Source: Chlorobiaceae bacterium (GTDB lineage: Bacteria > Bacteroidota > Ignavibacteria > Ignavibacteriales > Ignavibacteriaceae). From it: 42,500 bases of DNA. Where the stretch lies: NCBI GenBank assembly GCA_013824085.1, contig PNNF01000006.1, positions 1 through 42,500 of the forward strand, written 5' to 3'. The notes under the pieces were generated by a model. It was not told the origin of the DNA. It worked only from the letters and a program-made list of their open reading frames with translations, and made no database searches. A program made the translations under genes and the position numbers. Positions 360 through 6,697 of the stretch are shown piece by piece (the stretch's first letter is position 1; each line of letters opens with the position of its first letter).

Positions 360-1310
360 TTATTCTTCATAAACTCCGAGTTCACTAAATTTTTTAACTC
401 TATTTTGAATTAGCTTTTCAGGTTTAGTTTTTATCAGCAAACTTAATTCTTCTTTAATTACATTTTTTAAAATCAAAGCCATCGCGTTGTGATCTTTATG
501 CGCCCCACCAAATGGCTCTTGAACAATTCTATCAATAATTTTTAGTTTGATTAGATCCTCAGCGGTTAGCTTTAATGCTTCTGCTGCTTGTTCCTTAAAT
601 TCCCAACTACGCCAAAGAATGCTTGAACAAGATTCAGGACTAATTACAGAATACCAAGAATTTTCAAGCATCAATATTCTGTCGCCAAGCCCAATTCCCA
701 AAGCACCACCACTCGCACCTTCGCCAATAATAACAACGATAATTGGAACTTTTAATTTTGCCATTTCAAATAAATTTCTTGCAATCGCTTCTGCTTGTCC
801 GCGCTCCTCTGCTTCAAGTCCGGGATAAGCTCCGGGTGTGTCGAGCAAAGTGATAACTGGCTTATTGAATTTTTCTGCAAGTTTCATCAAACGTAGTGCT
901 TTGCGATAACCTTCGGGATTCATCATTCCAAAATTTCTGTGCAGATTTGATTTTGTATCTCTCCCCTTTTGCTGTCCAATTATCATCACTTTGTATTCAT
1001 CAATTTTTGCGAATCCACCGACAACTGCTTTGTCATCCTTAAAATTTCTATCGCCATGAAGTTCAATAAAATCTTGAGTCATAAGATAAATGTAATCGAG
1101 TGTGTAAGGTCGCTCTGGATGACGAGCAAGCTGCACGCGCTGCCAACGTGTTAAATTTTTATAGATATTTTCTTTTAGATGTTGAACTTTTTCTTCAATT
1201 ATTTTTATCTCATTATCGATATTCAAATTATCCGAAAGTTTTTTCATCTCAGATAATTTTTCTTCAAGTTCAATAATTGGTTTTTCAAAATCAAGAATAG
1301 TTTTTGCCAT
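360..1310 (-). CDS. accA: Acetyl-CoA carboxylase carboxyltransferase subunit alpha
   Basis: This is the alpha subunit of the carboxyltransferase half of acetyl-CoA carboxylase, which moves carboxyl from biotin-BCCP to acetyl-CoA to make malonyl-CoA in the cytoplasm, the first committed step of fatty acid synthesis. The 316 residues match the family's usual length. Residues 1-50 are a charged helical region typical of AccA. The crotonase-like core carries [12 protein letters not shown] (about 63-74), [17 protein letters not shown] (156-172) and the oxyanion-hole motif [12 protein letters not shown] (196-207). The ATG is preceded at good spacing by AAAAGG, which overlaps the last codons of the upstream glycosyltransferase gene, so the two are probably translated from one mRNA. 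The odd point is its place as the last gene of a polysaccharide operon. No accD is in the window. Confidence 0.96.
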
Positions 1311-1312
1311 AG

Positions 1313-3292
1313 TTACCTTTTGTTAAAAATAAATTTACTTAATGTCTTACCAATAATTTCAAGATCAAGCCAAATGTTTTGATTCTTTGCATAGAATATA
1401 TCCAACTTATTATTCTTTTCAATACCTTCATTTTCTGCAAACCAAAGTCCTGTGGCTCCTCTTTTTCCGAGATAGAGCTTGTTAGATTTGTCTGTAATCA
1501 TCGGTCCAACAAAACTCATTTTGCCAATAAAAATTTTAGGGAGATCCCAGATCAAGTTTGGAAAATAAATTTCGTTTGGTTTTCTTTTTGTAAAAATAAA
1601 AAATGGTGAAAAAATAATTATCGAGAAAAATGAAAAAACAATATCAAAAAAACGTTTGATAATTTTATGCGCAGGTTGCGAAATGTTATAAGTAATTTCA
1701 ATCAATGGAAGATCATCAAGCAGATTCACAGAAGATTTACCAACAATGAAATCGAGATTAGTCCCGACCATCTTAAACTCAACATTTATTTTTTGACACG
1801 ACGAGACGATTATCATTATCTGTGTGTATGAAATTTCATCTGAAGAAAAAATAACTTCATCAATTTTTTTTTCACGAATAATTTTTGAAATATTTTCATA
1901 GCTTCCAATAATTTCAAACTCTTCTATTTTTTTTCCAACATCTTTCATCGAAGGAGAAATTAATCCGATGACATTATTGTATGATGTAGATTTCTTTGAG
2001 AGTTTATTTGCAATCTTAATTCCATTTTCACCCACGCCCACAACAACGGAATTAATTTTTTTTGATTCAGTAGAAACAACTCCAATTTTAAAAATTAGCT
2101 TAAAAAATATTCTCCAAAAAGAAGCAAGAAAAACTAAATTCAAATATGTAAGAACTACAACCACTCTACTGAATGCAAATTCTTTGAAAAAATATGTGAG
2201 TGATGAGACTACAAAGAAGCCCGCAACTACTCCCCAAAAATTTCTTAAGACAGAAAGTGAGTCGCGTCTATAAACGCCAAGCACAGCCGCAGTAATTATG
2301 TGCACGATTGCAGGAACTGTATAAACGATATGGAGAGTAGCGTGAGGAAACCCCCGCCAATCTGTTAGTAACATATAAAATTCTTCCGCAACAAAAAGGG
2401 CAAAGTTGAAGATGAAAAAATCGATAATGATTGCTGAAATAATAAGTTTGTTGATTCCTAAAAATGCTATTACTTCCCGAAAAGAAATTGCTATTCGCAA
2501 AAGCAAAACAACTAAGAATGAAGATGAAAAATGTTTCTTTACAAACAAGTGCATCGCGTTGTAAAAAATTCTTGTCTCATCAATGCTGCTGCGCCTTGTG
2601 CTCTCACCTTTGTAATGAATAATTTGTGTTTCATGAAAATAGAAAACTTTGAACCCCGCTTTTTGAATTCGATAACACCAATCCAAATCTTCACCATACA
2701 TAAAAAATGTTTCATCCAATCCACCAATTTTTTCATATACATTTTTTCTAAGCATCATGAATGAACCAGAAAGTGCATCTACTTCATAAGTTAAATCTTC
2801 ATCGAGATAGGTCAAATTATATTTTGCAAATAATTTACTTTTTGGAAAGAGCGCACTTAAACCTGTTACTTTGCAAAACGACGTCCAAGGTCCGGGAAAA
2901 CTTCTTCGGCAGGAGAGCTGAAAAGTTCCATCAGGATTTAATATTTTACAGCCCGCCATTCCAACGTTCTGATTGGATTGAAAAAAATTTATCATCTTTT
3001 CAAATGTATCTTCTTGAACAATTGTGTCGGGATTTATAAGCAGGAAAAATTTTCCCTTTGCAATTTTGAGTCCCAAATTATTTGCTTTGCTAAAACCAAG
3101 ATTAGTTTTGCTATCAATTAATTTTACATCAGGGAATTTTTCTCTTAATAATTCTACGCTGCCATCAACGGAATTATTATCGACAACAATAATTTCGTAA
3201 CGATAGTTTGTGATTGACTTGTTAATTGAGTGGAGTAAATTCTGTAAGAATTCTTTGACGTTATAGTTTACTATTATTATGGAAAGATCCAC
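1313..3292 (-). CDS. GT2 glycosyltransferase fused to a degenerate polyprenyl glycosylphosphotransferase
   Basis: This is a 659-residue two-part protein starting at GTG. Residues 1-265 are a GT-A family 2 glycosyltransferase of the rhamnosyltransferase (WbbL) type: SIIIVNYN (4-11), [10 protein letters not shown] (36-45), the metal-binding LLINPDT (84-90) and the acceptor-side GEDLDWCYR (200-208). From about 280 on it resembles an undecaprenyl-phosphate sugar phosphotransferase. There are several hydrophobic segments (about 281-305, 320-340, 350-370, 376-400), then a nucleotide-binding-like fold with VVVGVGENG (416-424), then a membrane re-entrant helix at [15 protein letters not shown] (546-560). 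After that the catalytic domain has collapsed. The SxGP...KFRSM stretch and the DEIPQ acid pair present in the neighbouring PGT at 4082-5485 are absent, while fragments such as KMSFVGPM (591-598) and GATGLW (612-617) remain. I infer an active GT2 tethered to a non-catalytic PGT scaffold. Ten bases separate it from the upstream gene. Confidence 0.85.
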
Positions 3293-3302
3293 AAAAAGCT
3301 CT

Positions 3303-4025
3303 CTATAAAAGTTTAAAAATACTACTAAGTCTCAGCTTCCAAACAAGAAGAGCAGCTTCGCGAACAATTTTTTTCGACATCTTTGAACTGCCTGAAGTTC
3401 TGTCGTAAAATATTATGGGAATTTCTTTTATCTTAAAACCTTTTTTCCAAACCTTAAAATTTATTTCGATTTGAAAAGCATATCCATTAGATTTTATTTT
3501 ATCGAGATCTATCGATTGCAAAACTTCTTTCCTAAAACATTTGAATCCACCTGTTGCATCGCATACAGGCATACCCGTAACGAGTCGTGTGTATTTATTT
3601 GCGGAGTAACTTAATAATAGGCGTTGCATCGGCCAGTTGATCACGTTCACGCCGGTTAGATATCGGCTTCCAATGACAAGATCATTATTTTCAATTTCAC
3701 GAAGAAAATTTGGAATCTCTTTGTAGTCGTGAGAAAAATCTGCATCCATTTCAAAAATGTAATCAAAATTTTTCTCGATTGCATATTTAAATCCCGCACA
3801 ATAAGCAGTTCCAAGCCCCAGCTTCGCAGCTCGTTGAATCAAGTGAATTCGGGAATTAGTTTTCATCAACTCTTTTACATATTCGCCTGTTCCATCGGGA
3901 GAATTATCATCAACAATTAAGATATGAATTTCATCCTCATACATCGATAAAATTTCTGGAATCAATTTTTGGATGTTGGACATCTCATTATATGTAGGCG
4001 TTATTATTAGCGAACGTTTTTTCAT
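3303..4025 (-). CDS. Polyprenol-phosphate mannose/glucose synthase-like GT2 (DPM1 family)
   Basis: This is a family 2 glycosyltransferase of the dolichol-phosphate-mannose synthase type, predicted to move a hexose from a nucleotide sugar to a polyprenyl phosphate at the inner face of the cytoplasmic membrane. Visible marks are IITPTYNE near the N-terminus, VDDNSPDGTG, the metal-binding FEMDADFSHD, and VIGSRYLTG followed by ATGGFKCFRKEVL, all in family order. There is no C-terminal membrane domain, as in soluble DPM1-type enzymes. I chose the ATG at 4025 (240 residues); an in-frame TTG lies nine bases upstream at 4034. It sits between the PGT gene and the GT2-PGT fusion. A polyprenyl-linked sugar made here would need a GT-C or a GtrA-type partner, and none is in the window. 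The sugar is not determinable from sequence. Confidence 0.88.
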   Translation of the reverse strand: MKKRSLIITPTYNEMSNIQKLIPEILSMYEDEIHILIVDDNSPDGTGEYVKELMKTNSRIHLIQRAAKLGLGTAYCAGFKYAIEKNFDYIFEMDADFSHDYKEIPNFLREIENNDLVIGSRYLTGVNVINWPMQRLLLSYSANKYTRLVTGMPVCDATGGFKCFRKEVLQSIDLDKIKSNGYAFQIEINFKVWKKGFKIKEIPIIFYDRTSGSSKMSKKIVREAALLVWKLRLSSIFKLL

Positions 4026-4081
4026 TTTGCTCAAAATATTTTATGAAAAATAATTTTATTTAGTGAATTCTCAAATTGAAA

Positions 4082-5485
4082 TTAATCATAATGTCCCTTT
4101 CCAAAAAGAACAACAAAAATTGTTCTAAACAAAATCTTTAAATCCATACGCAACGACATATTCTCAATATAGAAAAGGTCATACTTCAATTTCTTTTTTA
4201 CGTCATCAATAGTTTCGTCATACTTATGTTTTACTTGAGCCCAGCCAGTAAGCCCCGGCTTCACTTTTAATCTTCTTTTGTAATAAGGAATTTCTTCTGA
4301 CAATTTTTCAACAAAGAAAGGACGCTCTGGACGAGGACCGACTAAACTCATTTCGCCTTTCAATACATTTATCATTTGCGGAATTTCATCAACTCGAATT
4401 TTTCTAATCAGTCTTCCAATTTTTGTAATGCGCGGATCATTCTTGAATGACCAGACTGGCCCAGTATTTTTTTCTGCGTCAATATACATCGAACGAAATT
4501 TATAGACATTAAAAAGTTTTCCGTTCAAGCCGCATCTTTCTTGCTTAAACAAGATTGGACCTTTAGAATCAAGCTTGATGGCAATAGCAGTTGCTAAAGT
4601 CATTGGTGCGCTACAAACCAATAGAATCAACGATACGACAATATCCAAAATTCTTTTTGCACGTTTTTCCCATTCAGGCATTAGGATTGGATTAATATCA
4701 ATCAACGGAACGCCGTAGAGTTGGCTTGTCTTTGCTTGTCCGCTTAGAATATCATAAAGATCAGGAACAATTTTTATTCCGATGTTTAGATTTTCACATT
4801 TAGCAATAACTTCAATTAAAATATCTTCGTGATGATTTCGAAGACTTAGAATAACTTCTTGAACATTATAATTTTTTATTATTTCGGAAATTTGTGAAAC
4901 GTGTCCAATTGCTTTTATTCCATTATTTTCTTTTCCAATATTTTCATCTTGAACTGCAACGTAGCCAATAATATCAAGCCCCAACGCTCTATGATTTGTA
5001 ACTTGTTCTTGCACTTCAAATCCTTTTTCATTGAAGCCGACGAGTAAAACATTTCTTCTGCCGATACCTTTTATCAAAAGTTGTCTTTGTAAACTTCTGA
5101 TAAATAGACGACCAGTTCCAACGAGAGCGAAAAAGATTCCCCAATAAAAAAAGATTAAGAAACGATTTGTTGAAGAGACTCCGCTTTGATAATCATCAAA
5201 CATTATCAGAAAGAAAAGAATAAATATTCCGACGAAAGTTGACTTAAACAGAGTTGATAGCTCATCAAATCGTGAAAGCGCAAACCAAGTCCTATACATT
5301 CCAACCATCGTAAAAATTACTATCCAATAAAAATAAACGACAAACATTGGGAAAAATAATTCTGGTTCGACAAGGAAATCAAACCAACCTGTTGTAAGCC
5401 GCAGTTGTCTATAAATTATCCATGCAATATTAATTGTGATTAGATCTGTAATAAATACAAGAGTTTTTTCAGAAGTCTTATTCAT
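4082..5485 (-). CDS. Undecaprenyl-phosphate sugar-1-phosphate transferase (WbaP/WcaJ type, complete)
   Basis: This polytopic membrane enzyme is predicted to start repeat-unit synthesis by moving a sugar-1-phosphate from a UDP-sugar to undecaprenyl phosphate. The 467 residues have the full family layout. Four N-terminal membrane segments (about 10-30, 45-63, 80-97, 108-125) are followed by a CoA-binding-like Rossmann domain with NVLLVGFNEKG (145-155), a membrane helix (278-302) and the catalytic domain. The latter has KGPILFKQERCG (308-319), YKFRSM (328-333), the catalytic Asp-Glu pair in VDEIPQ (366-367), MSLVGPRPERP (379-389) and PGLTGWAQV (410-418). Its start overlaps the stop of the frameshifted GT4 gene by eight bases. 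It is the only intact PGT in the window and therefore the likely initiating enzyme. Sugar specificity cannot be read from sequence. Confidence 0.93.
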   Translation of the reverse strand: MNKTSEKTLVFITDLITINIAWIIYRQLRLTTGWFDFLVEPELFFPMFVVYFYWIVIFTMVGMYRTWFALSRFDELSTLFKSTFVGIFILFFLIMFDDYQSGVSSTNRFLIFFYWGIFFALVGTGRLFIRSLQRQLLIKGIGRRNVLLVGFNEKGFEVQEQVTNHRALGLDIIGYVAVQDENIGKENNGIKAIGHVSQISEIIKNYNVQEVILSLRNHHEDILIEVIAKCENLNIGIKIVPDLYDILSGQAKTSQLYGVPLIDINPILMPEWEKRAKRILDIVVSLILLVCSAPMTLATAIAIKLDSKGPILFKQERCGLNGKLFNVYKFRSMYIDAEKNTGPVWSFKNDPRITKIGRLIRKIRVDEIPQMINVLKGEMSLVGPRPERPFFVEKLSEEIPYYKRRLKVKPGLTGWAQVKHKYDETIDDVKKKLKYDLFYIENMSLRMDLKILFRTIFVVLFGKGHYD

Positions 5486-6697
5486 TAGAATTTAATTTAT
5501 TATAAAAATCATTGACAACTTTTTCTCTGTCAAAATTTTGTAAAGAATATTTTCGACCATTTTCTCCTTTACTAATAATTTCTGCTTGGTTGCTAAAACA
5601 ATATTTAATTTTTTCTGCAAGCATAATTGAATTTTCGGGTTCAACGAAATATCCGCAGTCAGAAGTTTCAACAATTTTTCTGGCTTCACCATCAACGCTT
5701 AACAACACGGGTATTTCGGCTGACATTGCTTCATACAATTTTGAGGGGATTGTCATTCTGAATAATTCATTTTTAATAAGCGGAATAATCATCACATCAA
5801 ATAACGAAATGTATTTAATAATTTCATCGCGCGAAAAAGGAGGAATCAATAAAACATTAGAAAGTTTATTTACTTCAATCTCTTTTTTTATTAAATCTTT
5901 ATCAACTCCATCACCAATAATCATATAGACGATGTTGGAATTTTCGAAAGTAATTTTTGCTGCATCGGTAATAATTTTTATTCCTTGTGCACCGCCAATA
6001 TTTCCAGCATATCCAAAAACCATTTTCCCTTCGAGAGATAATTCCTTCTGCAAGGTCAAATCTTTCTCGTACTTTTTCATCTTGTTTGAGTCAACAAAAT
6101 TGGGGACATAAAAGACATTTTTTACAAAGCTAAACTTCGACTTAAATTTTTCTTGAGTAATTTTTGTTACAACGTTTACGACATCACTTTTTTTATAGAT
6201 CAATTTTTCGAGCCACTCGCAATTTGGATAGCAGTTTTATTTTTTAAAAAACCAAGTTGAATTGCAGATTCAGGCCAGAGGTCGCCAATATCAAAAATAA
6301 ATTTTGTGCGTCTAAAGATTTTATTTATCACTCCAACAATTCCCGTAAACAAAGGCGGGGAAATTGTTAAAAGGTAATCAAATTTTTTTAATTTGAATAG
6401 AGTTACAAAACTTGCTGAGAATGTGAAGGACAAATAATAAAGCATTCGTTTTAAGAATGAGCCACGATCCGAAGCATAGACAAAGCACCTGAAAATTTTA
6501 ATTCCATTCTCTTCTTTGTATTGAAACAATCTAAACTGTTTTTCAATTTGATTTTTTTCCATCAAATAACTTGGGAAAGGCGCAACTACTGTTACATCAA
6601 CACCAAGCTTCAATAGCTCTTCAACAAAGCCGATGCTTCTTTGCGAACCGCCACCAATTTCAGGTGGAAAATATTGCGTAATTAAGATAAAATTCAT
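5478..6697 (-). pseudogene. GT4 glycosyltransferase (WbuB type) broken by a one-base frameshift near 6215
   Basis: Two reading frames together make one family 4 glycosyltransferase of about 406 residues. The N-terminal frame (6200-6697) has ITQYFPPEIGGGSQR, the hydrophobic stretch of WbuB-like enzymes and IFDIGDLWPESAIQLG, then runs into a stop after IASGSKN. The C-terminal frame (5478-6203) begins LIYKKSDVVNVVT and carries GYAGNIGGAQG and PSKLYEAMSAEIPVL, the sugar-nucleotide binding half. Restoring one base at about 6215 changes IASGSKN-stop into IASWLEKLIYKKSD, the expected family sequence, so the lesion is a single missing base (AGTTGG read as AGTGG on the minus strand). The 3' frame could start at a TTG at 6203, but half a GT4 should not be active. 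The gene overlaps both neighbours (4 bp upstream, 8 bp downstream), so the operon is otherwise intact. It may be a sequencing error or a true recent inactivation. Confidence 0.87.

Follow-up and report, generated by a model that had tools for sequence, protein, structure and literature searches.

The gene at 1313..3292 on the minus strand of the window (the whole 42,500-nucleotide stretch of DNA analysed here) encodes a 659-aa protein, read from a GTG start, in which a complete GT2 glycosyltransferase is joined to a PGT that lacks its active-site block. The same architecture and the same deletion were found in 118 of 118 aligned orthologues (78 order-level and 40 divergent members), which excludes chance, and the substitution pattern of the dead half indicates purifying selection. 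Since the joined form has been retained across much of the phylum, the dead half probably still functions by holding the live half in place at the membrane.

Domain architecture and the missing catalytic block

The GT2 catalytic domain occupies residues 1-255 (2528..3292, minus strand, as are all parts of the fusion and its three neighbours given below). It is a GT-A domain with its Asp motifs and catalytic Glu-Asp region (D38, N87-P88-D89 and E201-D202), matched by Pfam at residues 4-189 (PF00535, 1.5e-27), and its nearest structures are 6p61 (Z 24.5), WrtF and RmlT. The key residues are invariant in the 78 order members and present in 39-40 of the 40 divergent ones. A preliminary description of this DNA had reported complete GT2 motifs in the N-terminal part, which these data bore out.

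Behind the GT2 domain comes a hydrophobic/amphipathic helix (residues 259-280; 2453..2518), similar to the post-GT2 helix of the short forms described below, and then the membrane architecture of a large PGT (Lg-PGT). A four-helix transmembrane bundle of Lg-PGT type (residues 282-401; 2090..2449) is followed by a Rossmann-like DUF (CoA_binding_3, PF13727, with the Pfam match at residues 344-508) together with a low-confidence hairpin segment (residues 402-536; 1685..2089), the end of the DUF lying at residues ~478-530 (1703..1861). The re-entrant membrane helix (1598..1675), carrying K546 and D550-x12-P563, runs into a junction (1544..1597) at which ~78 residues of the PGT core, from KFRSM to the Asp-Glu pair, are missing, and the protein ends in a PGT-domain remnant (1328..1543) that includes D643, equivalent to the Asp that stabilises the helix. 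Structure prediction of the C-terminal half (mean pLDDT 78) gave four long helices and a Rossmann-like domain, with the re-entrant segment as a single long helix and short helices at the C-terminus. The best Foldseek match was WbaP 8t53 (E 2.0e-12), onto which the half was superposed with Z 14.6 and rmsd 10.1 over 324 aligned positions; the remnant matched PglC 8g1n with Z 11.3 and rmsd 3.3 over 116 aligned residues. The earlier claim that PGT membrane helices and a Rossmann-like domain are kept was thus upheld by both the PF13727 match and the WbaP structural match.

The extent of the deletion was defined by comparison with the intact PGT two genes upstream (4082..5485). The two proteins are collinear except for the block from KFRSM through the DEIPQ region, and Bac_transf matches the intact PGT over profile positions 1-178 but the fusion only at residues 584-655, corresponding to positions 94-178 of 179; among the fusions this match always begins at about position 91-97. 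Likewise, a profile of 75 C-terminal halves matched the PDB entry of WbaP in two pieces, residues 12-308 and 387-472, leaving the ~78 residues 309-386 without a counterpart. The loss of KFRSM and Asp-Glu had been noted at the outset and is therefore confirmed, and the "scattered late motifs" mentioned with it proved to be the conserved late PGT segments S-[FL]-V-G-P, G-x-T-G and YA-x-N-Q-x-x-W-L-D-L-E.

The active site of monotopic PGTs consists of K59, R88, D93, E94 and R111 of PglC, and their re-entrant helix is a DX12P motif with a partner Asp (PMC12802240); Pro24 of PglC has been implicated in polyprenol binding (PMC6133551). The block with the Asp-Glu dyad (PglC D93-E94) is missing in all 118 aligned orthologues, the columns of K59, R88 and R111 are gapped or variable in the fusions, and in the alignment columns of the 40 divergent members no conserved counterpart of any of the five residues was found. 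Other positions are strongly retained: K546, D550 and D643 occur in 78/78 order members and in 36/40, 38/40 and 40/40 divergent members, respectively, so that D643 is present in 118/118 fusions. The exact DX12P motif is found in 72/78 order members and in 24/40 divergent members, its Pro having moved or been lost in the other 16. Conservation of the Lys, the DX12P Asp and D643 alongside loss of all five active-site positions indicates that the membrane architecture has outlived the chemistry, most strictly in Ignavibacteriales.

Distribution, selection and shortened forms

The domain pair was searched for across related genomes. Full-length orthologues with 50-63% identity were found in 57 of 59 relatives from the same order, Ignavibacteriales (named loci include Ignavibacterium, Melioribacter and Stygiobacter), with two truncated by contig ends. 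Among the matches listed from 395 genomes of the phylum, the fusion appeared as one long frame in 39 of 40 members of the order and in at least 52 of 58 members of the class, and direct reading added three further class genomes, including G156, in which the end is eroded, and G405, in which it is cut by the end of the contig. Outside the class, the full-length fusion was present in at least 15 families. All 40 divergent members that were fetched could be aligned over most of their length, and 0 of 40 contained the Asp-Glu block. A search of a plasmid collection for the fusion returned only dehydratase-like matches.

Two genome-level calls were revised. The apparent absence of the fusion from G156 in the profile search was rejected, as the fusion is present there, flanked by the DPM gene and accA, and its C-terminus has eroded further. 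Joint loss of fusion and PGT in G026 and G394 was not accepted as evidence of partnership, since accA is absent as well and a missing region is no less probable. At L198:7156-9012 (minus strand), a 619-aa fusion is situated between the DPM gene and accA, and its C-terminal part is too eroded for a profile search.

In a tree of shared columns, the C-terminal halves of 50 fusions formed one clade (SH-aLRT 99) separate from the neighbouring PGTs. Together with the identical deletion in every orthologue, this clade points to a single early loss of the core, and the simplest history would be one fusion and one loss before the lineages of the phylum split. Descent from the neighbouring GT2x gene was weighed and received no support from the GT2 tree, in which outgroup sampling was thin. 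A separate fusion was found in G079 (L251:2572-4938, minus strand), where a 788-aa protein joins another, different GT2 to an Lg-PGT that retains both KFRSM and Asp-Glu; the same genome also carries the dead fusion. GT2-PGT fusions have thus arisen more than once, with the PGT remaining alive in this case, which makes it plausible that a GT2 can work beside a PGT.

Selection on the two halves was compared in the seven closest pairs (dS <0.8; the pairs overlap and are not all independent). The dN/dS ratio lay at 0.03-0.07 in the GT2 and at 0.08-0.19 in the pseudo-PGT, indicating that the latter evolves faster than the GT2 and is itself under purifying selection. The two observations that had been named in advance as fatal to the proposal, orthologues retaining the Asp-Glu pair and a C-terminal half that is strain-specific and free of selection, were therefore both absent.

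The membrane part is nevertheless not kept everywhere. In family f30, 22 of 41 genera encode the same GT2 in a protein of 365-388 aa (L213, L226-L247), and in family f28 a 417-aa shortened protein stands directly before accA (L212, L248-L250). Both forms are without the four-helix bundle and the PGT remnant and retain the GT2, the post-GT2 helix and, of the DUF, its final ~50 residues, the sole DUF/PGT piece left in either lineage. The tail of L213 matched DUF HMM positions 206-256 (i-E 1.6e-5) and that of L212 positions 208-256 (i-E 0.005), compared with 0.58 for the best of 1000 shuffled tails; the f30 tails also matched the fusions profile against profile with a probability of 95.5 (E 1.6e-8). 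The two shortened groups were placed apart among full-length fusions in the GT2 tree, and a single clade of shortened forms was rejected (p-AU 0.0014), which indicates two independent shortenings and hence a membrane part that can be dispensed with. Of the membrane scaffold proposed in the preliminary description, what stands is a dead half conserved with its membrane architecture; the notion that it is obligatory does not, and the shortened forms point instead to the end of the DUF as a working part.

The conserved operon

In the window, the intact Lg-PGT (4082..5485), which carries KFRSM, Asp-Glu and GPRP, and a DPM-like GT2 of the polyprenyl-phosphate sugar synthase type (3303..4034) precede the fusion as conserved operon neighbours, and accA (360..1310) begins 2 bases past the fusion stop. 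Nearly all Ignavibacteriales loci show the arrangement PGT, DPM-like GT2, fusion, accA, with median gaps of 23, 7 and 1 bases, and some relatives have an extra gene after the PGT. Within the order, no other sugar protein of this module is as well conserved as the GT2 domain (0.745, compared with 0.677 for DPM and 0.659 for the PGT), and gene content upstream of the PGT differs between loci, which fits a fixed core. The proposal of one operon with the real PGT thus holds within Ignavibacteriales and fails as a general rule: many loci outside the order have no PGT gene adjoining the fusion, and some lineages have only accA, the most constant neighbour, alongside. An intact PGT was found in every examined genome that carries the fusion. 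Distances between fusion and PGT sequences were correlated (partial r 0.87 given accA), a result discarded as evidence of partnership since shared vertical descent predicts the same.

Several further features of these loci were recorded. Across 102 loci, the median gap between fusion and accA was 1 base, even where no PGT is nearby. In families f31, f32, f47 and f52 (L169-L174, L177, L182), the fusion is split from PGT, DPM and accA by an oppositely oriented tgt-like gene of 375 aa. Within the window, the abutting short reading frames at 5478-6203 and 6200-6697 resemble the split parts of a single GT4 glycosyltransferase, which a frameshift in the gene or in the assembly may explain.

Possible roles and comparison with known systems

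In lipid-linked glycan assembly, a PGT makes a polyprenyl-diphosphate sugar, which a GT2 then extends by one sugar at the same membrane face. We suggest that a GT2 gene became joined, early in the history of the phylum, to a large monotopic PGT copy from the lineage of today's adjoining PGT, and that the fused PGT lost its active-site block once, the product being retained as a membrane-held glycosyltransferase. The GT2 would be the only catalytic part, while the four-helix bundle, the DUF and the broken re-entrant helix would hold it at the cytosolic membrane face, where the lipid-linked acceptor is located. The most likely acceptor would be the polyprenyl-diphosphate sugar from the real PGT of the operon, making the fusion the enzyme that would attach the second sugar in a conserved core. 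That the protein is a GT2 anchored on a dead-PGT membrane platform and working in a conserved lipid-linked core pathway is, in our estimate, evenly balanced between right and wrong, the role, the acceptor and the second-sugar step all being inferred. Counting against a platform are the two shortened lineages that do without bundle and remnant, the many loci outside the order without an adjoining PGT, and the shifted or missing Pro of DX12P in 16 of the 40 divergent members. We also entertain, more tentatively, a version in which the pseudo-PGT either assembles with the real PGT into a mixed complex or captures the product of that enzyme, and so channels the two opening steps of a conserved lipid-linked glycan; here the end of the DUF would be the essential part of the dead enzyme, because two lineages independently retained it when shedding the rest.

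It is rather unlikely, though worth weighing, that the main role of the pseudo-PGT is to pair with the real PGT through its DUF and four-helix surfaces, as in WbaP, either holding GT2 and PGT together or regulating the PGT. WbaP forms a homodimer mainly through its DUF hairpin (PMC10942596) and EpsZ requires a partner to form its active dimer (PMC12802240); in the fusion the hairpin (approximately residues 512-533) is strongly conserved yet has a pLDDT below 50 in the monomer prediction, as with monomeric WbaP, and PGT and fusion are inherited together. However, such low pLDDT equally fits plain disorder, and in many lineages the PGT lies elsewhere in the genome. Unlikely too is a C-terminal half that serves as a generic GT2 membrane anchor with no relation to the PGT or its product. 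Its double loss with the hydrophobic post-GT2 helix remaining, and the constancy of accA rather than the PGT as neighbour, would suit such an anchor, but an anchor has no need to keep, over such distance, the DUF, the late PGT motifs and the Lys/Asp pair by which the re-entrant helix is tied to the PGT fold. In addition, both shortened lineages retained the same DUF end, which is not itself a membrane segment.

Two other explanations are very improbable. The decaying fusion raised in the preliminary description, or an artefact of assembly or gene calling, might be suspected from the missing core and the faster evolution of the C-terminal half, but the junction is identical in 118 orthologues from many assemblies and the low dN/dS of the pseudo-PGT in close pairs refutes decay. 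Continued phospho-sugar transfer through a rebuilt active site is scarcely credible: G-[LIVA]-T-G and other late PGT motifs persist across the order, yet no substitute is seen where the Asp-Glu pair, the Lys and the two Arg would stand, and the ~78 domain residues are gone.

The fusion is of interest for the study of glycan assembly. Since the pseudo-PGT is old, widely retained and beside a live PGT, physical coupling of early glycan steps becomes directly testable, and the fusion raises the question of the conserved core sugar in these bacteria. The DUF of large PGTs is thought to regulate catalysis, and survival of its fold without catalysis offers a handle on its function. No inactive PGT fusion, and no dead member of the monotopic PGT superfamily, was found described in the open-licence literature; the parts are known, and it is their combination and state that we did not find there.

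Among these known parts, Lg-PGTs (WbaP, WcaJ and EpsZ; TIGR03025) share with the fusion the four-helix bundle, the PF13727 DUF, the DX12P re-entrant helix and the C-terminal Bac_transf motifs, whereas the fusion lacks their ~78-residue catalytic core and has a GT2 domain in front. GT2 sugar transferases of the rhamnosyltransferase-like kind (PF00535; 6p61, WrtF and RmlT) have the same whole catalytic domain and motifs, although the GT2 of the fusion does not reach the NCBIfam cut-off for any named function. Bi-PGTs are bifunctional monotopic PGTs (PMC10942596), and like them the fusion joins a second functional domain to a monotopic PGT; in Bi-PGTs, however, the PGT core is catalytic, whereas in the fusion it is without an active site and dead.
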